Source of the DNA: a virus
DNA: 22,390 nt
Strand: one strand, 5' to 3'
Virus record (IMG/VR): IMGVR_UViG_3300017779_000178
Coordinates: 1 to 22,390 of that record
Part shown: positions 4,002 through 21,771 of the stretch, one piece after another
How the letters are laid out: every line of letters begins with the position of its first letter
How positions within the stretch are numbered: the stretch's first letter is position 1
Translations under genes and position numbers: made by a program
The notes under the pieces: model-generated
Databases searched by the model: none
What the model was told of the DNA's origin: nothing
The model's input: the letters and a program-made list of their open reading frames with translations, nothing else

Positions 4002-5625
4002 ATCTAGGGGTAGCTGTTAAGTAATCGAGCCGGTCTCGCCAAGAAGGAGCCTTGTAAATGGGGGTCTGATAGCTGGCGAACTCGGTCATCATCAAACCAA
4101 GCCATGCCAACGCATCAACTTGGTCGTCGTGGACACCGTTGGGGAAACGCAACATCTCAGCCACTAACGGGCCGGTGAACACTTCGTCCTTGGGAAACCA
4201 CACCATGCCCTGCTGCATCCGGCCTTGAATGGCGCGGGCTCGGGCTTCTTTATCGCGACGTCCTGTCTTCAGGTCTTTGATAAATGCTTCATACAGACCG
4301 CGCTCTCGGATCCGTTTCTCTAGGAACGGGCCCAACGCCATCTCGATATGACCTTTCTCAATGCCGATCATCGAGGGCTTCCACTCTTCGTAAAGATCTA
4401 GGATCCGCTCGACAATCTCAAAGCCGTCAAAGCGTCCGCGTACAACGTCCACAATGAACAACTCGTCAAATTCGTTTACGCCAATAACCATGCCGACCGA
4501 ATAGTCGTTACGGTCGTTTTTACCAATGGCTAAGTCCCACGCGCAGTAGTACCGCATGGCGTCAAAGTCGACGTCATCGGCTTCGTAGTACTGGATCATG
4601 TCGCGGGTAAAGTAGTCACCGTCATCTGCGACGGGATTCTGCTGATACAAAGCTGACCAATCTCTAGGGCCTACGGCCTTTCGTATACGGTCTAGTGATA
4701 CAACGTCGTAACGCTCTGGGTGCAGGGCATCACCAGAGTCGCGGAACTCTTCGTCTTCTTCAGCAATCGCGGGGTAACGGACAACCTCCCAGTCGTCTCC
4801 ACCCTCGGTGGTGGCTTTTAGTAGACGGCCCGCGAGGTCATCGTCATGCCACCGAGTAAGAATGACCAGTACACCACCGCCAGGAGCAAGCCTTGTATAC
4901 GCCGTCGACGTATACCAGTCCCAGTTAGCATCACGATTATTTTGGCTCTCAGCATCTTCTCTGTTCTTTACCGGATCATCAATTACTAGGATGTGTGCGC
5001 CCTTACCAGTGATACCACCACCCACACCAGCAGCGACAAAGCCACCGCCGCTAGTAGTGAGCCAAGCCTCGGCTGACTGAGATTCTGGATCAAGGCGCGT
5101 ATCGAAGGCCGTTTTGTAACTAGGCTCTCTAAGTAGTCCACGAACTTTTCGACTGAATCCCATAGCAAGCGAACCCGAGTACGAACATGAAATAAACTCG
5201 TGTTGAGGGTTCCTGCCAAGGTGCCAAGCCGGAAACGCAATCGACGCCAAAGTTGATTTGCCGTGTCGCGGAGGTAAGAAAAGCATAAGTCTAGGCGACT
5301 CTTTCGCCACAACCTTCCTACTAAATTCTTCAAGTCTTCTACAAACATCTTTATGCACCCATCCTGCTTGGTAATCGGGGCTGAACCGCTCAACGAACGG
5401 TAACAACCGCTTTCGAGTCAGGAACCGTAGTGCTAGCTCGGCTCTTGCTTTGTCTTCAACCGATTGCGCCTCTGTTACTTCTTCTTCTACAGGCGCAGTG
5501 GCAGCCGGTATCGACTCCACCTCGTCGGCCTTGCAGTAAACACAAAATCCATCTCGCCCTGAGTACAGGGTCTCGGGGTGCAGGTTCTTGCACCGTTTAC
5601 ATTCCTGCATTGGAATGTCAGTCAT
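3979..5625 (-). CDS. terL: Terminase large subunit (packaging ATPase-nuclease)
   Basis: A 548-aa packaging motor that hydrolyses ATP to pump DNA through the portal and cuts concatemers. The ATPase domain has a Walker A motif PPRHGKST (Lys about 123) and Walker B HILVIDDP (Asp 216-217), with LTRWHDDDLAGRL as coupling motif. The C-terminal RNase H-like nuclease shows CAWDLAIGKNDRNDYS with a metal-binding Asp, a GIEKGH block and the terminal VHDDQVDALAW motif. The chosen ATG at 5625 overlaps the small terminase stop by 8 bases (ATGACTGA); an upstream in-frame start at 5664 would overlap further and is less likely. Unusual: the N-terminus carries two CxxC knuckles (Cys 9/12 and 28/31), a probable zinc ribbon not needed for the core motor, followed by a Glu-rich linker. 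Confidence 0.96.
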   Translation of the reverse strand: MTDIPMQECKRCKNLHPETLYSGRDGFCVYCKADEVESIPAATAPVEEEVTEAQSVEDKARAELALRFLTRKRLLPFVERFSPDYQAGWVHKDVCRRLEEFSRKVVAKESPRLMLFLPPRHGKSTLASIAFPAWHLGRNPQHEFISCSYSGSLAMGFSRKVRGLLREPSYKTAFDTRLDPESQSAEAWLTTSGGGFVAAGVGGGITGKGAHILVIDDPVKNREDAESQNNRDANWDWYTSTAYTRLAPGGGVLVILTRWHDDDLAGRLLKATTEGGDDWEVVRYPAIAEEDEEFRDSGDALHPERYDVVSLDRIRKAVGPRDWSALYQQNPVADDGDYFTRDMIQYYEADDVDFDAMRYYCAWDLAIGKNDRNDYSVGMVIGVNEFDELFIVDVVRGRFDGFEIVERILDLYEEWKPSMIGIEKGHIEMALGPFLEKRIRERGLYEAFIKDLKTGRRDKEARARAIQGRMQQGMVWFPKDEVFTGPLVAEMLRFPNGVHDDQVDALAWLGLMMTEFASYQTPIYKAPSWRDRLDYLTATPRSKSAMSS

Positions 5626-7381: not shown

Positions 7382-7687
7382 ATGCTTACTAAACAGTACT
7401 TACGCTTAATCACCATCGTTATTGGAGAGTGGTTTCTAGTCCTGAGCACCATCATCGCAGAGGTAGCCCTAGTTGCACTGGGTTACTACCTCGTTATCAA
7501 CGAACAACTGGCCTTTGGCCTAATGTTTATGCTCTCAAGTCTAATTTTCCCGCTCGCGCTGATACAAACAGTGCCCTTCACCCTCGAAAAGAACCATATC
7601 AAACGCGACATCTCACGGATCAAGCGCCGCCGCGCTCGCAAGTGTGTGCCATGTGTGCCACGTGCGTGCCACTTGCGTGCCAGCTAG
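7382..7687 (+). CDS. Small membrane protein, two hydrophobic helices
   Basis: A 101-aa protein starting 10 bases after the previous stop, with AAGGAGA ahead of the ATG. Two transmembrane segments are evident at about residues 9-37 and 43-68, followed by a strongly basic cytoplasmic-type tail (KNHIKRDISRIKRRRARK). The last 15 codons run into the iteron array, so the tail is partly encoded by the repeats (CVPCVPRACH). Function unknown. The stop at 7685-7687 lies inside the repeat region, so the true C-terminus may reflect repeat expansion. Confidence 0.78.
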   Translation: MLTKQYLRLITIVIGEWFLVLSTIIAEVALVALGYYLVINEQLAFGLMFMLSSLIFPLALIQTVPFTLEKNHIKRDISRIKRRRARKCVPCVPRACHLRAS

Positions 7688-7957
7688 ATTTCGCCAAGTG
7701 GCACACACTTAAGCCCTTGTTATTACACGGGTTTTCCTTCGAAAAGCACATTTGTGTGCCATGTGTGCCACCTAAAACACACCTTGTTTTTTTTTATTTC
7801 TTCTTTTCACGTTTTTCTTTTTTTTTCTACTAACCCAATTTTAAGTGGCACACATGGCACACATTTGGTTTTTGTATATACATCAATCACTTACGCCATT
7901 TTCAAGTGGCACACAATCTGGCACACAGCTGGCACACATTGCTCCAGCTGGCACACA
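7640..7957. repeat. Iteron array (TGTGTGCCA, 13 copies, both orientations), candidate replication origin
   Basis: Exact TGTGTGCCA begins at 7643, 7652, 7753 and 7762, with variants TGCGTGCCA at 7663 and 7674. The reverse complement TGGCACACA begins at 7699, 7846, 7855, 7907, 7919, 7930 and 7949. Two tandem doublets (7753-7770 and 7846-7863) form a perfect 18-bp inverted repeat that flanks a T-rich, pyrimidine-only-like tract (7784-7827). A 12-bp inverted pair (7640-7651 and 7699-7710) and a TGTATATACA palindrome (7873-7882) are also present. This holds the longest gene-free stretch of the window (7688-8020). Dense iterons plus an easily melted tract is the design of iteron-type origins; a large regulatory array is the alternative. 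Confidence 0.8.
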
Positions 7958-8020: not shown

Positions 8021-8326
8021 ATGACTCAACGAATACATATCGACTCTGTCCGACCCAACCGGCTCCAAGACTCAGGACTGGGATACGACCCGCTCCCATA
8101 TCGCACTGTTTACGCCAGTCAAGAGTGCGCAGCATATGGAACCGCTGTCTGGCGTTTCAACAAGCGCGTGCCCAGCAACCGCCTGTGTAAGTTCATAGCC
8201 GCTGTTCAATGCCAAGGCACGATAGACCCTAGACTCTGGACACTAGTTAGGGACTTTAAAGACCCCTTCGTATGGACTCAGATCGATATGTGCTTTGACT
8301 ATCCCAACCAAAAGGAAGCCGCGTAA
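8021..8326 (+). CDS. Small unknown protein downstream of the iteron array
   Basis: A 101-aa soluble protein. Two ATGs are close (8015, 8021); AAGGA ends at 8014, so 8021, with 6-base spacing, is preferred. The sequence contains TVYASQECAAYGTAVWRFNKR and a later SNRLCKFIAAVQCQG, without a family I recognise. It is the first gene after the candidate origin and is followed by a TAATG overlap, so it heads a tightly coupled string of very small genes. Its position makes an origin-binding role conceivable, but nothing in the sequence shows it. Confidence 0.72.
   Translation: MTQRIHIDSVRPNRLQDSGLGYDPLPYRTVYASQECAAYGTAVWRFNKRVPSNRLCKFIAAVQCQGTIDPRLWTLVRDFKDPFVWTQIDMCFDYPNQKEAA
8223..8234. repeat. 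12-bp repeat TAGACCCTAGAC, copy 1
   Basis: Exact 12-mer also present at 9179-9190 and 11773-11784, each time in coding sequence in a frame giving Asp-Pro-Arg. Three exact copies in 22 kb are unlikely by chance. CTAG is often scarce in proteobacterial DNA, which makes it more notable. Confidence 0.6.
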
Positions 8327-11598: not shown

Positions 11599-11795
11599 GC
11601 GACACACGAGCAGATCAGATCGTCCAGCAATTACAAATGATTGCTGCACACGCCGAGAACGCTCCTGACATCAGCCCCAACGGCAAGAACCACAGATACA
11701 TATCAGCTGTGGGGCTTGCTGACCTGTTGTTGGAAGCAGCAGACCTGATCGATGAGCAGATCACAAAAACACTAGACCCTAGACCGTGGCACTAG
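11595..11795 (+). CDS. Small unknown protein upstream of the modifier gene
   Basis: A 66-aa protein from a GTG that overlaps the previous TGA (GTGA). An AGG lies a few bases upstream; no strong SD. It is helical and acidic (DQIVQQLQMIAAHAENAP, then GLADLLLEAADLIDEQITK). A later ATG at 11637 is an alternative start. It resembles small host-or-phage proteins of DUF type but no family is recalled. It ends 38 bases before the ubiquitin-like cassette, so it may be co-transcribed with it. Confidence 0.62.
   Translation: MSDTRADQIVQQLQMIAAHAENAPDISPNGKNHRYISAVGLADLLLEAADLIDEQITKTLDPRPWH
11773..11784. repeat. 12-bp repeat TAGACCCTAGAC, copy 3
   Basis: Third exact copy of the 12-mer, at the end of the 66-aa gene (LDPRPW). 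A related CTAGGGCCTAGACC follows 10 bases later (11792 onward), just before the modifier gene. Confidence 0.6.
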
Positions 11796-11833
11796 GGCCT
11801 AGACCTTTCCCCTGCCACATTACTGGAGAAGAC

Positions 11834-12052
11834 ATGATGTCTGACATTTTCGTAAAAGTAGTACGCGTCCCTGGCGCTGTAACCGAAGTCGCCTTATCTG
11901 CAGGCGCAACCGTAGCTGACGCTCTGTCTGCTGCTGGTATCTCTTCCACTGGCTCTGAGTCCATACGTGTTGGCGCTGCTGACGCAACCGTGGACACCTC
12001 TGTCGGTGACGGAGACCGCGTTGTGATCGCGCAAGGTGCCAAAGGCAACTAA
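11834..12052 (+). CDS. Ubiquitin-like modifier (MoaD/ThiS-type beta-grasp)
   Basis: A 72-aa protein with the beta-grasp pattern: strand VKVVRVPG, strand EVALSAGATVADALSAAGI (the classic TVxDAL helix start), strand IRVGAADATVDT, then GDGDRVVIAQGAKGN. The DGDxV turn before the last strand is the ThiS/MoaD and ubiquitin-like hallmark. It ends Lys-Gly-Asn, not Gly-Gly; Asn would have to be removed to expose Gly for adenylation, if it follows the usual route. GGAG lies 5 bases before the first ATG; a second ATG follows at 11837. It leads the E1-JAMM-E2 set, so it is read as a protein modifier; a sulfur carrier (with no E2) is the alternative. Confidence 0.8.
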   Translation: MMSDIFVKVVRVPGAVTEVALSAGATVADALSAAGISSTGSESIRVGAADATVDTSVGDGDRVVIAQGAKGN

Positions 12053-12076
12053 ACGACCACACCACTTTCGGGGTAT

Positions 12077-12098
12077 GGCCCATCAGTAATGGTGGGCC
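12077..12098 (+). other. GNRA-capped RNA hairpin between modifier and E1 genes
   Basis: GGCCCATCA pairs with TGGTGGGCC (one G-U) around a GTAA loop, a GNRA tetraloop as RNA. No T-run follows. It may set relative expression of the highly needed modifier and the E1 enzyme by processing or attenuation; inference. Confidence 0.65.
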
Positions 12099-12167
12099 TC
12101 CATCGGACGCTCGGAGTATGCCAACCCTACTGCCCTGCCCCACCCACTTACCGGCTAAGGAGATCCA

Positions 12168-12857
12168 ATGATGCTCTCAACAATACGCCACGACGCAGTG
12201 TTCCGTGCATACGACTACAAGGATTATCCAATCCACATTGTCGGTGCCGGTGCCACTGGCTCCCGCGTGTTCATGTCACTACTGGAGCTTGGTCTGACCA
12301 ATCTGCATGTGTATGACTTCGACATCGTAGAGCCGCACAACCTCGCCAACCAAGCGTTCCTGTTCGAGCACGTCGGCTTGCCCAAAGTCAAAGCGTTGCA
12401 GAACCTAGCATCGCTCAAGCTCGGCGTGCCTGAAGACAAGCTACCAATGCAGTTCATCAACGAACGCATCGACCAACGACAGTTCGACGGCTTTCTATTC
12501 TTGCTGACCGATACGATGGCATCGCGTCGCAAGATCATCGGCAACCAATCGACTGGCCCTGACAGTATGTTGCTCCATGTCTTCGAGACCCGCATGGCCT
12601 CGTCTCATGGCAACGTGTACCACTTCTCGCCAGCCAACCCACACCAACGTCAAGCGTGGTTCGACTCGCTCATCAGCGACGACGAAGGCGAAGTGTCGCC
12701 CTGCGGTACCAGCATATCCGTAGGCGCTACTGCTTCGCTCATTGCCAACCTAGCCGTGTGGGAGTTCATGAACTTCCTACTCGATGACGGTTGTGCAACA
12801 GCACAGCTCGACGTGTTCTTCAAACCCATGCTACTCACGACCAGAGAACAAATATGA
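12168..12857 (+). CDS. E1-like activating enzyme (ThiF/MoeB/UBA superfamily)
   Basis: A 229-aa protein. The Rossmann ATP site is GAGATGS (Gly 26, 28, 31), followed by the E1 signature YDFDIVEPHNLANQ (Asp 50, Asp 52, Glu 55, Asn 58) and VGLPKVKAL (Lys 73). The usual NLxRQ Arg is replaced (NLANQ). A later FLLTDTMASRR provides the second Asp region. SPCGTS places a candidate catalytic Cys at 179, followed by the dimer helix GATASLIANLAVWEFM. The family adenylates a modifier C-terminus and forms a thioester. No Cys-x2-Cys zinc site is seen. It overlaps the JAMM gene by 4 bases (ATGA). AAGGAG lies 5 bases before the ATG. Confidence 0.92.
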   Translation: MMLSTIRHDAVFRAYDYKDYPIHIVGAGATGSRVFMSLLELGLTNLHVYDFDIVEPHNLANQAFLFEHVGLPKVKALQNLASLKLGVPEDKLPMQFINERIDQRQFDGFLFLLTDTMASRRKIIGNQSTGPDSMLLHVFETRMASSHGNVYHFSPANPHQRQAWFDSLISDDEGEVSPCGTSISVGATASLIANLAVWEFMNFLLDDGCATAQLDVFFKPMLLTTREQI

Positions 12858-13657
12858 ATTTCTATACCCAACCAAGCGGTGCAGACATCGATAGCTCATC
12901 GATGGAGCCCGCAATCACCCCGCTCTATGAAGAGCCACCCATGCCGGTTGTGTACTACACGGCTCAAGTTAAAGCCGTAATCAACCACCTTGTCGCAGTA
13001 AACACTGCCGAGGTTGGCTGGCTCGGCCTCGTCAAACAGGTTAACGACAACGACTACTTGGTCTACAAGTTGTACGTGCCCAAACAGACTGTCCACTCAG
13101 CCGAGACAGACATTGATTCGGACGCAATGGCTAACCTTGGTATCGAGATCACTGAGGCTGGCTTGCCTGCCGAGGATCTCTACTACTGGGGCCACAGCCA
13201 CGTAAGCATGCAGGTTTCACCCAGCGGCCAAGACGAAACACAAATCGAAGAGTTTCTAGAAGCTGGCTGCAAACACTTTATACGTGGCATTTACAACAAG
13301 CAGGGCCACAGCAAGGTGGATGTGTATGACGTGCCGCGCAATGTCATCTACCAGTGCGTTCGTGAAGACGTTGAGGTCAGCCTAACTGCCGAGGAAGCCG
13401 AGCACCTCGACGCGGTGATCAAAGCCAACGTTACTAAAGCACCAACACCGGTTTACAAAAAGACACAGTTCAAACGCAGCCCTGTCATCAGCAACCTGCC
13501 TGCAAACAACTACCACAGCCAGATGCAGCAGCCGTTCTATTACAGCAACACGTTTGACCACCTCGACGATGTCGCCATCGAAGACTACAGCGATGACTAC
13601 AACGACGGGGCTGACGATTTCTTAGACGGATACGACCCATCAAGGAGAATTCAATGA
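12854..13657 (+). CDS. JAMM/MPN+ metallopeptidase (deconjugase or modifier processor)
   Basis: A 267-aa protein. Its N-terminal 170 residues form a JAB1/MPN domain with a complete JAMM motif: Glu 53 (NTAEVGWLG), His 114 and His 116 (GHSHVSM), Ser 124 and Asp 127 (SPSGQD), in the exact H-x-H-x7-S-x2-D spacing. Zinc and the catalytic water are therefore expected, so isopeptidase or C-terminal processing is likely. The remaining 100 residues are polar with an acidic, Asp/Tyr-rich tail (DDYNDGADDFLDGYD) and no known fold. The start overlaps the E1 stop. Likely roles are trimming the modifier's terminal Asn and removing modifier from targets, by analogy with bacterial Bil and CBASS Cap3 peptidases. 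Confidence 0.93.
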   Translation: MNFYTQPSGADIDSSSMEPAITPLYEEPPMPVVYYTAQVKAVINHLVAVNTAEVGWLGLVKQVNDNDYLVYKLYVPKQTVHSAETDIDSDAMANLGIEITEAGLPAEDLYYWGHSHVSMQVSPSGQDETQIEEFLEAGCKHFIRGIYNKQGHSKVDVYDVPRNVIYQCVREDVEVSLTAEEAEHLDAVIKANVTKAPTPVYKKTQFKRSPVISNLPANNYHSQMQQPFYYSNTFDHLDDVAIEDYSDDYNDGADDFLDGYDPSRRIQ

Positions 13658-14562
13658 GCTGGGCACATCAACAAACACTCACACTCAATCCAGGCAAAGA
13701 GCTTCAAGCGGAGTTGGAACTTCAGCTTGAGCTTGCAAAGACAGAAGTAGAAATAAAACGCGACATTGTTCGTCAACATAAGCTCAGGTCGCAGCATTCA
13801 ACCAATCAATGGATTCGAATACGAGACGCTTACAACCAGCCCCACTCATGGCTGGTGTATCAGCTCACGGGTGGTCATACACACTTAAAAGAGCGGATAG
13901 AAGTGTTGATCAAGCACTATCACCAAACAGCGGACGAGCAGTGCCGTGACAACTATGAAGCTCTACAAAGAGCAGAAGCACGCTACGAAGCCGTCCAAGA
14001 GCGTGAGGCGCAAGCTAAAATGAGACTCAGCATGGTACGCGATCAAGCTGACATCGTTGCCAGCAGAGACATGCTCGACAGATCATTGCGCGACAATGCT
14101 TACTACGTACCTGACTCTTTGCAGTTGTCCTTCAACAACAACCCACATCAATACCGAGTCACCTTCAGCCTGCGTAACATCATCGCCATCAACCCTCGTG
14201 GTAACAATCCCATTGAGATTCCGCCTCTGCGTATCGACTTTTATATCAACCCAACCGGCAGTCACGATCTTGTAGTTCGTAACGACATCGGTCGCCCTTA
14301 CTGGACAGATCGGTACAAAGGCTACTCCGAGGTTCCGTTGTTGCACCCACACATGACCGGTGAAACGACGCTGTGCTTGGGCGACTTTGGTGAAGGTGTT
14401 ACCGAAGCAATCAGTGAAGGTGACTTCGTTACTGCTATCACAATACTCACCATGTTCTTTCAGCAATACGATCCTGATGATTCGGCTGGCCTGCATTTTA
14501 ATGCGTGGCCCGAAGCTACGTTTGATGAGGATCGGCATATCGCTGACTACGCAGACGCTTAG
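13654..14562 (+). CDS. E2-like (UBC-fold) conjugating enzyme with N-terminal coiled coil
   Basis: A 302-aa protein overlapping the JAMM stop by 4 bases. Residues about 13-150 are a long charged coiled coil (KELQAELELQLELAKTEVE onward). The C-terminal domain is E2-like: strands in PHQYRVTFSLRNII and IEIPPLRIDFYINP, then the E2 signature HPHMTGETTLCLGDFGEG with His 231/233 and the predicted catalytic Cys 241, and a final helix EGDFVTAITILTMFFQQY. HPH-x7-Cys-x-Gly is the prokaryotic E2/UBC pattern. Full-length E2s are about 150 aa, so the coiled coil is an added module, perhaps for dimerisation or target choice. Recognition rests on motif, predicted strands and neighbours. Confidence 0.85.
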   Translation: MSWAHQQTLTLNPGKELQAELELQLELAKTEVEIKRDIVRQHKLRSQHSTNQWIRIRDAYNQPHSWLVYQLTGGHTHLKERIEVLIKHYHQTADEQCRDNYEALQRAEARYEAVQEREAQAKMRLSMVRDQADIVASRDMLDRSLRDNAYYVPDSLQLSFNNNPHQYRVTFSLRNIIAINPRGNNPIEIPPLRIDFYINPTGSHDLVVRNDIGRPYWTDRYKGYSEVPLLHPHMTGETTLCLGDFGEGVTEAISEGDFVTAITILTMFFQQYDPDDSAGLHFNAWPEATFDEDRHIADYADA

Positions 14563-15945: not shown

Positions 15946-17751
15946 ATGCTAGTAACCCTAGACTTTGAAACGTACTTTGATCCCAAGGTAAGCCTCACCA
16001 AGATGACGACGATGGAGTACGTCAAGCACCCCATGTTCAAAGTGTGGGGTGTTGGTATCAAAATAGATACCGGCCCAACCGAATGGTTCGGTGAAGACGA
16101 AGTGGAAGAAGCGCTTAATGATATCGAGTGGGACAAAGCCCACCTGCTCTGCCACAACACTCCATTCGACGGCTACATTCTTACTCAACTGTACGAGCTA
16201 GTACCCGCCTACTACTTAGACACGGCAGCTATGGCCCGTGGTAGATGGCCAGGGGAAACGTCTCGACTCAAGGATGTAGCCGTCCGATGCTTCCCAGACG
16301 ACCCAGACATGCGTAAAGGTGAAGAGCTAGTCACAGCGAAAGGTATCTATGACCTGCCACCAGACATAGAAGATTCGCTTGCTGGCTACTGTATACAAGA
16401 CGTCGATCTGACCTATGCGATTTACAACCAGCTACTGCCTGCTTACCCCCAGACCGAACTGGACATCATCGATCTCACATGCCGAATGTTTTGTGAGCCG
16501 AAGATGACGCTCAACCGATGCAAGCTCGAGTCGTTTGTCGAGTCTGAGCGTGCGCACTCGGAGCAAGCTATCGAGAAATCTGGTCTGGATCGTAAGGTCT
16601 TGGCCAGTAATCAGCAGTTTTCAGCATGGGCTGAAGAGCAAGGACTGACAGTACCAACAAAAACCAGTCCATCCACGGGCAACAAGATACCTGCCTTTGG
16701 TAAAAATGACGCTGCGTATAAGCAGTGGCAACAGCAGCACCCTGAATACAATCATGTATGGCAGGGCAGAGAAGCAGTAAAGAGCAGACTCAATGAAACA
16801 CGGGCACAACGTTTCATTGATTGTGCTAACGCAGGTAGTCGACTACCCGCACCCCTTCGCTACTACGCTGCTCATACCGGTAGGTTTGGAGGTACCGATA
16901 AGATCAACCTTCAGAACCTGCCTCGCAACAGCGAACTACGTAAAGCGATAGAAGCACCGTCCGGTGGCTTCCTCTACGTAGCGGATCTATCAAACATCGA
17001 GTCTCGTATGTTGGCATGGCTTGCCGAAGAAGATGAGCTACTGCAAATGTACCGAGACGGCACCGATGTTTACTGTGATTTTGCATCCAAGGTTTACGGA
17101 CGCACGATCACTAAAGACGATGCAATCGAACGCTTTGTAGGTAAGACGGCAATACTAGGTCTTGGCTACGGTATGGGCGCTCAGAAGTTCCAAGCCACAT
17201 TGAAGCAAGCCAACATAGAAATGGATTTCTTTGAGGCCAAAACTATCGTCGATGAATACCGAACGGCTTATCCACACATCCCCAACCTGTGGAATCGGCT
17301 CAACGCTTTACTTACTGAGTCTTCGAACATGGGCAGGGTGCAGGATGACGACGCTTTCGGTTACGCCTACAGGTGTATCCAAGCGGCACCCAATTCGATT
17401 CTCCTCCCGAATGGAATGTCGCTTCGATACCCTTTTTTAACCTGCACAAAAGCCGGTTTAACGTATCAATCTATGGGCAAACCCGTCTCTACCTATGGCG
17501 GGCGCATCACCGAGAACGTTGTACAAGCACTGGCTCGCATTGTCTTATGCGATCACATGCTGCAAATACAGCGCCGACCAGAATTTGAAGTTGTGCTGAC
17601 AGTACATGACGAAGTCATCGCCATAAGTCAGCAGGACAACCCAGAAGATAAATTGAACAGCATGATCGATATCATGCGCCAGCCCCCTAAGTGGGCACCT
17701 GACCTACCGCTCGATGCAGAAGGCGGCTGGGACGTTAGCTACAGCAAATGA
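15946..17751 (+). CDS. Family A DNA polymerase with 3'-5' exonuclease, no 5' nuclease
   Basis: A 601-aa replicative polymerase. The proofreading exonuclease has LDFET (Asp 6, Glu 8), HNTPFDGY (His 70, Asn 71, Asp 75) and YCIQDVDLT (Asp 152). The polymerase palm and fingers have motif A ADLSNIESRMLAW (Asp 347), motif B KTAILGLGYG (Lys 400, Tyr 408) and motif C VHDEV (His 554, Asp 555). Motif A is DLSNIESR where Pol I has DYSQIELR, a variant seen in phage enzymes. The 5'-3' exonuclease of Pol I is absent, as usual for phage. The SD is weak (AAGG about 14 bases upstream), so coupling from the preceding gene is likely. The stop overlaps the next ATG. Confidence 0.96.
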   Translation: MLVTLDFETYFDPKVSLTKMTTMEYVKHPMFKVWGVGIKIDTGPTEWFGEDEVEEALNDIEWDKAHLLCHNTPFDGYILTQLYELVPAYYLDTAAMARGRWPGETSRLKDVAVRCFPDDPDMRKGEELVTAKGIYDLPPDIEDSLAGYCIQDVDLTYAIYNQLLPAYPQTELDIIDLTCRMFCEPKMTLNRCKLESFVESERAHSEQAIEKSGLDRKVLASNQQFSAWAEEQGLTVPTKTSPSTGNKIPAFGKNDAAYKQWQQQHPEYNHVWQGREAVKSRLNETRAQRFIDCANAGSRLPAPLRYYAAHTGRFGGTDKINLQNLPRNSELRKAIEAPSGGFLYVADLSNIESRMLAWLAEEDELLQMYRDGTDVYCDFASKVYGRTITKDDAIERFVGKTAILGLGYGMGAQKFQATLKQANIEMDFFEAKTIVDEYRTAYPHIPNLWNRLNALLTESSNMGRVQDDDAFGYAYRCIQAAPNSILLPNGMSLRYPFLTCTKAGLTYQSMGKPVSTYGGRITENVVQALARIVLCDHMLQIQRRPEFEVVLTVHDEVIAISQQDNPEDKLNSMIDIMRQPPKWAPDLPLDAEGGWDVSYSK

Positions 17752-17941: not shown

Positions 17942-17968
17942 TCGACAGCCGCGTTGGAGGAGAACAAT

Positions 17969-20458
17969 ATGCAGCTGAACTTCCTATCCGCCAGTAATGG
18001 CCTACCCCTTACCAAGACTTTCAGCGCTACCGGCTCTACTCCATACCCACTTGTCACTCACGTCGACAGCCATACGTTCACTGTTGATACGATCTCAGAC
18101 TTCCATGACACGCTGCGCCAGCAATCACAGCTAGGTCATTGCTTACTCAAAGGTGACCTCAAGCAGCCGCTCGTCAACGAGTCCCGCAAAGGCAAGTCAA
18201 ACCGCAATGCTTATACAGACTTGCTTGTGCTCGACATCGACGGCCTGCGCATACCCAATACAAAGTTCTCAACCGGCCCGCTCACCACGGTTCATATCGA
18301 GCACATTGCCAACATGATCGTATCCGCCCTGCCCGATGAGCTTAACGACGTTAGCTTTATCGCTCAGGCATCCAGTTCTTTTGGCATGAAGTCGGATCGA
18401 TTCTCGCTGCACCTATTCTTTATGCTCACTGTGCCGCTACCACCTAAGACGGTGAAGTTATGGCTACAGCACGTTAACCACGCAGATACCTTATTCGAAG
18501 AACAGATCGAGCTGTCCGTCAACGGACACTCTCTCAAGTACGTGGTGGACACCAGTGTTGCTGATAACAGCAAACTGATATTCATCGCACCACCAACGTT
18601 TGCTGATAAGACTCTTGACCCGTTTCAAGACTCTGATCAACGGATCGTATTGGTAAACAAAGGACAAGAGACCTTAGACCTTGCACCTTTGATGAGTGGC
18701 ATTAGCCGAGAAGCCATGTTCAGTGTCAGCAGAGCCAAGAAAGACGCGCTGCGTGACACGGCTGGCATGAACAGAAAGAAAGAAAAAATACAGATAGCAC
18801 AAGTTAATTATCGCAACGAAGAAATCCTAACCAACCCAGACAAAGTATCGATTACGGTATCGGACGACAGTAGCTCGCCATTCATCCGCTGTAATATCAA
18901 CGGTGGTGACAGCGGTGCGTACTACTTCAACCTCGATGCTCCGACCTACATGTACAACTTCAAAGACGAACCGATCTTTGAGATTGAGAAAGCCGATCCA
19001 GACTTCTATCTCAGCATCTTTGAGATGTTTGACGATCACATCAGCGAGTCCGGTAAGGCTTCCGTTCCTGTAGCAATCCGTGATTTTTACACAGACATCT
19101 ACTACTGCGGCCTGTTTGACCCAAACATTCAGCAGTTCAGTGACAACTACCCGCTAACTCCGCTAGCTAAAGGGTCTATCGACAGCTTCATGCTCAGTCA
19201 CGGACGCCCTGTACCTGACTTCATACCTGACGCCCGAGTCATCTTCGACCCAACGCAGAAGGAAGAAGCCATACAGCTGCAGAACACGCCGTACCACATC
19301 AATATGTATCGGCAGACCGACTACATGCTCAACGCAACTGAACCTGATAGGCCTTTGACCTTAGGCCAAGGGCCAAAGATCCAAGACAAGTGTCCTCTCA
19401 CCTATAAGCTGATACATCACATACTGGGCAATGGTGACGAGGAGCTTGAACGCTTCCTTAATTGGCTGGCTTACATATACCAAACACGACAGAAGGCTGG
19501 CACTGCTTGGGTGCTGACGGGTGTACCAGGCACCGGTAAGGGTCTGTTCTATAGCCGCATACTTCGACCGCTGTTTGGTGAAGCGCACGTACCAATGAAG
19601 GCGCTGCAGAACATCGAAGAGCAATTCAATTTGTACATGCGCACTGCCCTCTTCCTCATTGTCGATGAGTTCCACATGAGCAGTGCTAGCCAAGGCACTA
19701 TTAAGATTGCAGACAAACTCAAGAACCAGATTACTGAGAACACGACTACGATCCGCGCAATGCGTAGCAACCAGACTGAAGTAAAGAACTTTACGAACTT
19801 TATATTCCTGACCAACCGGCTCGATGCCGTGAAGATCGAAGACGGAGATCGCCGGTACAACATTGCACCTCGACAAGAAACCAAACTCGAAGTCGCTCAC
19901 CCTGAGGTCATTGAACGCATCGATGAGCTTCACAAAGAGTTACATGACTTCGCAGGCATCTTGAAAACATACGAAGTCAACACGCGTCTCGTCAGAACCT
20001 GCGTCAACAACGATGCGAAAACCGAGATGCGACACGTCAGCATGTCTGTGTTCGAAGACTTCTGTCGCGCCTTGAAAGAAGGCGAGCTTGAGTTCTTCAC
20101 CGACGTGTTACAGATAGAAACGACCAACGTCATGGGTAGCGGTGACGTACTACCCGCTCAACGTTTCGTTAAGAGTTGGTTAGCTAAGAGCAGCGAAGAC
20201 TACATGATGATCAAGGACGAACATCTACGCGTTGTCTTTCACGCTCTGACCGAACAAACGCCACGCATCAACGCAAAAGAATTTGGCAAACGCCTTGATC
20301 GCAACGGCCTAACTAAGACACGCAAGCGTCAGTCTGGTGCAGACCGCGACGCCAACCCAATACGCGGTATAGAAGTGAACTGGAAGATATCCGATGAAAG
20401 TCGTGACGAACTGATCGACACCTACTTCAACACCAAAGATAAACAATTAGTCGCTTAG
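17969..20458 (+). CDS. Primase-helicase (AEP-like primase fused to SF3-type helicase)
   Basis: An 829-aa protein. N-terminal archaeo-eukaryotic primase-like domain: LLVLDIDG (Asp 89/91), RFSLHLFF (His 148), and VVDTSVADNSKLIFIAPP (Asp 194), in the AEP motif order. The C-terminal helicase has Walker A GVPGTGKG (Lys 524), Walker B LFLIVDEFH (Asp 566, Glu 567), then FIFLTNR and the DGDRRYN arginine finger (superfamily III/D5 type). It would unwind DNA and prime both strands. The ATG at 17969 has GGAGG about 8 bases upstream; the upstream TTG (17954) lies ahead of that SD and is rejected. Primase plus helicase in one chain supplies the fork beside the polymerase; no separate loader is visible. 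Confidence 0.93.
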   Translation: MQLNFLSASNGLPLTKTFSATGSTPYPLVTHVDSHTFTVDTISDFHDTLRQQSQLGHCLLKGDLKQPLVNESRKGKSNRNAYTDLLVLDIDGLRIPNTKFSTGPLTTVHIEHIANMIVSALPDELNDVSFIAQASSSFGMKSDRFSLHLFFMLTVPLPPKTVKLWLQHVNHADTLFEEQIELSVNGHSLKYVVDTSVADNSKLIFIAPPTFADKTLDPFQDSDQRIVLVNKGQETLDLAPLMSGISREAMFSVSRAKKDALRDTAGMNRKKEKIQIAQVNYRNEEILTNPDKVSITVSDDSSSPFIRCNINGGDSGAYYFNLDAPTYMYNFKDEPIFEIEKADPDFYLSIFEMFDDHISESGKASVPVAIRDFYTDIYYCGLFDPNIQQFSDNYPLTPLAKGSIDSFMLSHGRPVPDFIPDARVIFDPTQKEEAIQLQNTPYHINMYRQTDYMLNATEPDRPLTLGQGPKIQDKCPLTYKLIHHILGNGDEELERFLNWLAYIYQTRQKAGTAWVLTGVPGTGKGLFYSRILRPLFGEAHVPMKALQNIEEQFNLYMRTALFLIVDEFHMSSASQGTIKIADKLKNQITENTTTIRAMRSNQTEVKNFTNFIFLTNRLDAVKIEDGDRRYNIAPRQETKLEVAHPEVIERIDELHKELHDFAGILKTYEVNTRLVRTCVNNDAKTEMRHVSMSVFEDFCRALKEGELEFFTDVLQIETTNVMGSGDVLPAQRFVKSWLAKSSEDYMMIKDEHLRVVFHALTEQTPRINAKEFGKRLDRNGLTKTRKRQSGADRDANPIRGIEVNWKISDESRDELIDTYFNTKDKQLVA

Positions 20459-21341: not shown

Positions 21342-21584
21342 ATGGAAATGTTTTATTGCGAAGGCAACGCAATCATCCAGTACTCGTTAAAGACTGATCC
21401 GCCAGAAGCACTGTATTGGTCAACGTACCGACTCAAGAAATCTCACATCGTTATCCACAACCGTATGAATCGATCTGAAAAAGCCGTTTGGCGTGAAAAA
21501 ATACTAAAGAGCATTACTTATGACGAAACAGTTCCTCGCAGCGATCCGAGCACAGGACACAGTTCAAAAGTTAAATTGGGTTAA
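21342..21584 (+). CDS. Small unknown protein
   Basis: An 80-aa protein with AAGGA about 7 bases before the ATG, directly after the structured element. The first 55 residues show alternating short strands (MFYCEGNAIIQYSL, ALYWSTYRLKKSHIVIH) and then a charged helix. The last 22 residues overlap the next gene's start and look poorly constrained. Function unknown. Confidence 0.6.
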   Translation: MEMFYCEGNAIIQYSLKTDPPEALYWSTYRLKKSHIVIHNRMNRSEKAVWREKILKSITYDETVPRSDPSTGHSSKVKLG

Positions 21585-21771
21585 ACGAGCTTCGTACTTC
21601 TGGGATACCGGTAAACCAAGAAGCCCGTCACTGACGCTTGAACAAAAGACCAAGATCTATGATCTACGGGATCAAGGCCTTGGTTATAGAGACATAGCCG
21701 CCAGACTCGGCCATTCGTACTACATGGTCTACAACACAATTTACCGGCGCAACCACGGCGAAAAACTGTGA
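21520..21771 (+). CDS. Small helix-turn-helix DNA-binding protein
   Basis: An 83-aa basic protein. Its C-terminal half, LTLEQKTKIYDLRDQGLGY then RDIAARLGHSYYMVYNTIYRR, is a homeodomain-like/Hin-type helix-turn-helix (second helix RDIAARLG, recognition helix from Ser to Tyr). The SD is weak (AAGAG upstream). It is the only clear small HTH protein in the window, so it is a candidate regulator, possibly of the dyad sites, though nothing here shows direct binding. The gene overlaps both neighbours, by 65 bases upstream and 4 downstream. Confidence 0.75.
   Translation: MTKQFLAAIRAQDTVQKLNWVKRASYFWDTGKPRSPSLTLEQKTKIYDLRDQGLGYRDIAARLGHSYYMVYNTIYRRNHGEKL

Follow-up and report, generated by a model that had tools for sequence, protein, structure and literature searches.

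A mirrored repeat array as the probable replication origin of an uncultured phage and its relatives

The window, that is, the whole stretch of DNA analysed here, is a complete IMG/VR virus fragment of 22,390 bp. In this fragment the large and small terminase subunits are encoded leftward, and a long early operon runs rightward with genes for a family A polymerase, a primase-helicase and a PD-(D/E)XK nuclease, as well as the first part of a helicase gene. An array of short repeats lies between the ORF at 7382-7687 and the ORF at 8021 (Table 1). The first four units of the array double as C-terminal codons of ORF 7382-7687, whose last residues are CVPCVPRACHLRAS, so that only from 7688 onward is the array strictly non-coding; this ORF has few counterparts, in 3 of the 28 array-bearing genomes described below. 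Elsewhere in the window, positions 11786-14562 hold a candidate phage-encoded ubiquitin-like operon, found in 8/28 relatives, with a small beta-grasp-like protein (weak Pfam matches only), a ThiF/E1-like protein (Pfam 2.6e-17), a JAB-like protein (PADLOC 1e-4) and, in E2 position, a 302-aa protein without a match.

Table 1. Positions of the array elements, the replication genes and the related sites in other genomes
Feature	Position	Strand	Remarks
Outer-left doublet, TGTGTGCCA x2, 9-bp period	7643-7660	+	overlaps 3' end of ORF 7382-7687
Two outer-left units TGCGTGCCA, one mismatch each	7663-7671, 7674-7682	+	
Outer-left unit, reversed	7699-7707	-	a reversed unit there recurs in most relatives
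IHF-like box TAAGCCCTTGTTA, left of pair	7710-7722	-	one mismatch to WATCAANNNNTTR
Inner-left doublet, TGTGTGCCA x2	7753-7770	+	mirror arm
Candidate DNA-unwinding element	7771-7845	.	75 bp, 75% AT, T-rich on + strand
Inner-right doublet, TGTGTGCCA x2	7846-7863	-	exact mirror of 7753-7770
IHF-like box CATCAATCACTTA, right of pair	7881-7893	+	one mismatch; 171 bp from left box
Four outer-right units	7907-7915, 7919-7927, 7930-7938, 7949-7957	-	
Family A DNA polymerase, likely replicase from this putative origin	15946-17751	+	Pfam DNA_pol_A, E 5e-28; 27/28 relatives
Primase-helicase, proposed initiator	17966-20458	+	AEP-type motifs, SF3/DUF5906 helicase, predicted C-terminal winged helix
Perfect DnaA boxes in relatives	L105:4363, L106:4290, L108:4197, L109:4192		loci oriented to window
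677-bp gap region of KPP25 with GTYACGA array	L071:1426-2141 (= KPP25 26199-26914)		

We counted 13 TGTGTGCCA-type units in 7643-7957, in agreement with the original prediction of thirteen units in both orientations; precisely, 11 are exact and two (TGCGTGCCA) have one mismatch, six units being on the plus and seven on the minus strand. No exact TGTGTGCCA copy is present in the rest of the 22.4-kb window. From left to right, the array consists of a plus doublet, two single plus units, one minus unit, a 45-bp gap with an IHF-like box, a second plus doublet and the AT-rich centre, followed by a minus doublet, a 43-bp gap with the other IHF-like box and four minus units. The prediction had also described an 18-bp doublet, TGTGTGCCATGTGTGCCA, with an exact mirror copy; these two copies are as described, whereas a third, at the left edge of the array, had been missed. 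The T-rich tract reported between the mirrored doublets is likewise present (~7783-7828), inside the gap that separates them, and only 0.14% of all 60-bp stretches in the window have a lower stability than this central tract. The commonest 9-mer per 320 bp reaches 11 copies in the array, compared with 2-4 copies in 100 dinucleotide-model shuffles. The array shows two features of an iteron-type origin, namely short repeats clustered at one genome site and an adjacent AT-rich element of low stability.

A search with the primase-helicase yielded 67 related viral loci, and an alignment-based scan yielded many more; the interval from terminase to primase was fetched for the relatives spanning it. 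Where the contig of a relative covers the site, an array was almost always found at the equivalent place, and 28 relatives with both array and primase-helicase were examined; related genomes were counted separately, so that 28/28 does not correspond to 28 independent events. The unit word varies by lineage, the words observed being TGTGTGCCA, TGTGTGTCA, GGTGTGACA, CTGTGACA, TGTGTGACG, TGTGTGCAG, TGTGTACCA, TGTGCACC, TGTGTACAC, TGTGTTCCA, TTGTGCCAC and TGTGTAGCA. The arrays are largely homogeneous, with 253 copies of the word of their own lineage in 9.5 kb of arrays against 12 in the 397 kb around them, and in the near-complete relatives G003, G029, G034 and G040 the units are nearly absent elsewhere. 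In one relative (G057, L195:1683-1985) the units on the left side of the AT-rich centre are CTGTGTCAG and those on the right side are of TGTGTGCAG type; this hybrid array arose either by recombination at the centre or through chimeric assembly of the contig. In another (G029), the contig ends (L095:1-198 and L096:4284-4481) overlap over 197-198 bp that differ only in one T run, which makes a circular 55.2-kb map probable.

What is kept between lineages is the geometry: convergent 9-bp doublets, an unstable centre of 73-89 bp, outer units and, often, paired IHF-like boxes. In most of the 22 arrays compared the centre is 73-77 bp long, and in the rest it is 80-89 bp, some being about one helical turn longer, while its sequence varies between lineages. 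In 19/22 arrays the centre has the lowest stability of all 60-bp stretches or falls within the lowest 0.32%, and the exceptions fall at 1.4-2.9%. Mirrored 9-bp doublets, as detected by an exact 6-mer test that misses imperfect doublets (for example in G040, KPP25, L191, L192 and L195), are present at the site in most genomes scanned, against an average of at most 0.05 sites in shuffles. Among more distant genomes, the metagenome-assembled L197 (primase-helicase 48% identical) has GGTTCCA doublets in the same arrangement as judged by eye, and no such array was detected by the tests used in phiA008 (30% identical) or in L198 and L199 (46% identical). L197, L198 and L199 (46-48% identity) are binned with marine MAGs (Neomarinimicrobiota, Planctomycetaceae, Rhodospirillaceae); they are probably binned phage contigs, which makes these bacteria putative hosts at most. 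Repeat clusters were also noted at 19.4 kb in G072 and within ORF036 of KPP25; being located elsewhere, they were not considered further. A nucleotide search of cultured phages gave no match.

Over all arrays we found 48 matches to the IHF consensus with at most one mismatch, where 11.7 were expected. The IHF-like boxes occupy conserved positions, and in 12 arrays two of them converge at a distance of 159-174 bp; since each box of the window has one mismatch, binding by IHF is treated here as putative. For DnaA boxes, the arrays together gave 10 against 19 expected, and none with up to one mismatch was found in the array of the window, which lacks the boxes of a DnaA-dependent origin; this class was discarded. 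A perfect DnaA box, TTATCCACA, occurs just to the right of the array in only four TGTGTGCAG-type relatives. Proposed as a check on the prediction, GC skew proved uninformative, as it falls monotonically through a near-complete relative, and no turn at the array was seen in G029, G034 or G040. AT skew does turn near the array, but it follows gene direction and was, for this reason, rejected as an independent origin marker.

We then considered which protein could read the units. Finding no obvious known initiator, the original prediction had suggested a novel one, noting the unrecognised neighbours at 7382 and 8021 and naming the genes at 8021, 10340, 10966 and 21520 as candidate binders. All of these were found in only 3-5 of the 28 relatives, so that a novel initiator is not needed; a primase-helicase of the origin-binding kind lies 10 kb downstream of the array, in the same operon, and is present in 28/28. 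It is the only window protein found in all 28, followed by the polymerase (27), g14774 (27), g17748 (26) and the terminase small subunit (25), several other absences being due to contigs that end before the gene. The relatives were found through the primase-helicase, which in part accounts for its own 28/28; what carries information is the absence of the candidate binders. The small helix-turn-helix protein at 21520-21771 (HTH_38, E 1.5e-6) was rejected as a general binder of the array because it was found in only 3/28 relatives.

The primase-helicase has the invariant AEP-type motifs LVLDIDG and SLH, an SF3/DUF5906 helicase domain at residues ~480-640 (DUF5906 in 52/52 members), an SF3/D5-type domain as in initiators of the P4-alpha and SaPI-Rep type, and a C-terminus (~728-804) with predicted winged-helix topology. 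Its best structural match is NrS-1 (6k9c, E 9e-24), followed by D5/E5 and SaPI5-type primase-helicases. For the C-terminal domain alone, NrS-1 was again the best among many winged-helix proteins, with a weak match (Z 4.4); with the same domain, a PDB sequence search gave no meaningful match and Foldseek gave none at E 0.001.

Distances between unit words correlate most with the winged-helix wing of the primase-helicase (residues 776-800) on two backgrounds (r 0.53 and 0.60); on a third, the wing reached r 0.51 and a terminase segment r 0.55. The recognition helix of the primase-helicase showed no co-variation with the unit word in this test. Since the permutations ignore relatedness, their p-values are too small and the binder is not claimed as proven by co-variation; the top window, moreover, depends on the background, and a terminase segment scores equally high. 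We consider the co-variation as no more than suggestive of the primase-helicase as binder, and as not specific to it. Different-word sister pairs tend to diverge more in the winged helix, although some same-word pairs drop too. Two observations, both chosen post hoc, agree with such a binder: in one pair with different words (L051/L026), identity is 0.92 over residues 1-480 and 0.71 over helix plus wing, and the three GAC-type lineages have V or I at residue 774, although L051 has V there too.

On these sequence comparisons, the repeats are very probably the site at which this phage starts copying its DNA. Comparison lends good support to the predicted combination of iterons with an unwinding element, since the relatives have an array at the same place, with the same geometry and an unstable centre. 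The primase-helicase is the likely reader of the unit word and probably the enzyme that opens the origin, and we consider the complete reading, in which 7643-7957 is a replication origin opened by this protein on the mirrored units, to be likely. On the model of P4 alpha, SaPI Rep and Cch2, the primase-helicase would use its predicted C-terminal winged helix to bind the 9-bp units, the convergent inner doublets would seat two oppositely facing helicase rings flanking the AT-rich tract, and the tract would melt between them. The centre of 73-77 bp in most relatives suggests a constrained spacing. The outer units, drawn near by DNA bending at the IHF-like boxes, may add protomers or regulate assembly; the helicases would then move outward, the primase part would prime and the phage family A polymerase would extend.

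A reading close to this one keeps the origin and assigns the units to another phage or host protein that loads the primase-helicase, as lambda O loads DnaB. The wide conservation of the small proteins g17748 and g14774 and the DnaA boxes adjoining the array in the four TGTGTGCAG-type relatives would fit it; on the other hand, g14774 reads as a membrane protein, g17748 has 59 aa, the array of the window is without a DnaA-box match and the primase-helicase has a predicted DNA-binding domain of its own, so we hold a separate binder to be unlikely. The repeats could also mark a packaging initiation (pac) site, bound by the terminase small subunit with IHF bending the DNA, as in the pac of P1, where short elements flank the cut together with an IHF site. 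In the window phage the core is in fact flanked by IHF-like boxes, the small-subunit gene, conserved as given above, is ~1.5 kb from the array, terminase segments co-vary to some extent with the unit word, and the G029 contig with near-exactly overlapping ends terminates inside the array. A centre that is large, AT-rich and unstable and hardly varies in length is, however, to be expected of an origin and not of a cut site; besides, the array lies outside the terminase genes, ~5 kb from terL in KPP25, and the contigs of G003, G034 and G040 cross it without any end overlap. Taken together, the contig ends were uninformative as to where packaging starts; we judge a packaging site to be quite unlikely.

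As the array stands within the start of the rightward early operon and units in both orientations are common in operators, we also considered an operator or enhancer for a phage transcription regulator of that operon. Sigma-70 promoter-like sites, however, number zero inside the array and one near it against 1.6 expected, the units are almost missing from the rest of the near-complete relatives, and the candidate regulators of the window are not conserved with the array. A regulatory role would also leave the mirror symmetry around a low-stability tract unexplained, and we regard it as very improbable.

Under the preferred reading, a replication origin opened by the primase-helicase, a probable origin and initiator can be assigned to an uncultured phage family and to the Pseudomonas KPP25 group. 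The arrangement would offer a clean model for a helicase-primase melting DNA between two mirrored sites, and, with about a dozen words set in one scaffold, co-evolution of origin and initiator becomes open to direct test. We also propose, tentatively, that the origin word and the DNA-binding domain of the helicase-primase may change in step from one sister lineage to another under a constant geometry, so that the family would hold a natural series of origins orthogonal to one another; if true, related phages could replicate side by side in a single cell, none titrating the initiator of another.

Several known systems were compared with this arrangement. The most distant array-bearing relative is Pseudomonas phage KPP25 (Kochitakasuvirus), whose primase-helicase is 30.7% identical and which carries an array of its own at 26387-26825, where convergent doublets flank an AT-rich tract; it differs in the unit GTYACGA, in its 677-bp gap and in additional units of mixed orientation. 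No published description of this array or origin was found in the literature searched. NrS-1 is the closest structural relative of the helicase and of the C-terminal part, but its genome has only two copies of an 8-nt recognition sequence and no repeat array (PMC7102993), in contrast to the array of the window phage. SaPI Rep and SCCmec Cch2 are, similarly, helicases or helicase-primases that recognise origin repeats, SaPI5 structures being among the fold matches; they bind these repeats by a C-terminal domain, and SaPI Rep apparently acts as two hexamers (PMC7581432). Their origins, however, lie directly downstream of the helicase gene, whereas the array of the window is 10 kb upstream of it, and the Cch2 repeat, AAGTG, is unlike the units of the window.

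The closest known arrangement is that of phage P4, with the repeats of ori and crr and the alpha helicase-primase that binds them. In the annotated P4 record the type 1 repeats, mostly TGTTCACC, are at 4314+, 4323+, 4366-, 4384- and 4398+ in crr and at 9310-, 9320-, 9331-, 9353+, 9396- and 9406- in ori, with stretches of 69-83% AT between them. The likeness consists of 8-bp TGTTCACC repeats in both orientations, with neighbours 9-11 bp apart and beside AT-rich DNA, and of a multidomain protein combining a primase and an SF3 helicase with origin recognition; a reference cited in PMC9611036 gives alpha as a primase-helicase with origin recognition. The P4 repeat TGTTCACC differs by a single base from TGTGCACC, the unit word of relative L104. 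At the sequence level there is only a marginal similarity to alpha (hhalign over 82 helicase columns, E 0.019 with a probability of 2.4%), and the P4 repeats are distributed over two sites ~5 kb apart, whereas those of the window phage are all at one mirrored locus. The design of the putative origin is thus of a known kind, and what makes it a variant is that all units lie at a single mirrored locus, around a centre of near-fixed length and with IHF-like boxes in pairs, while the words turn over between lineages.
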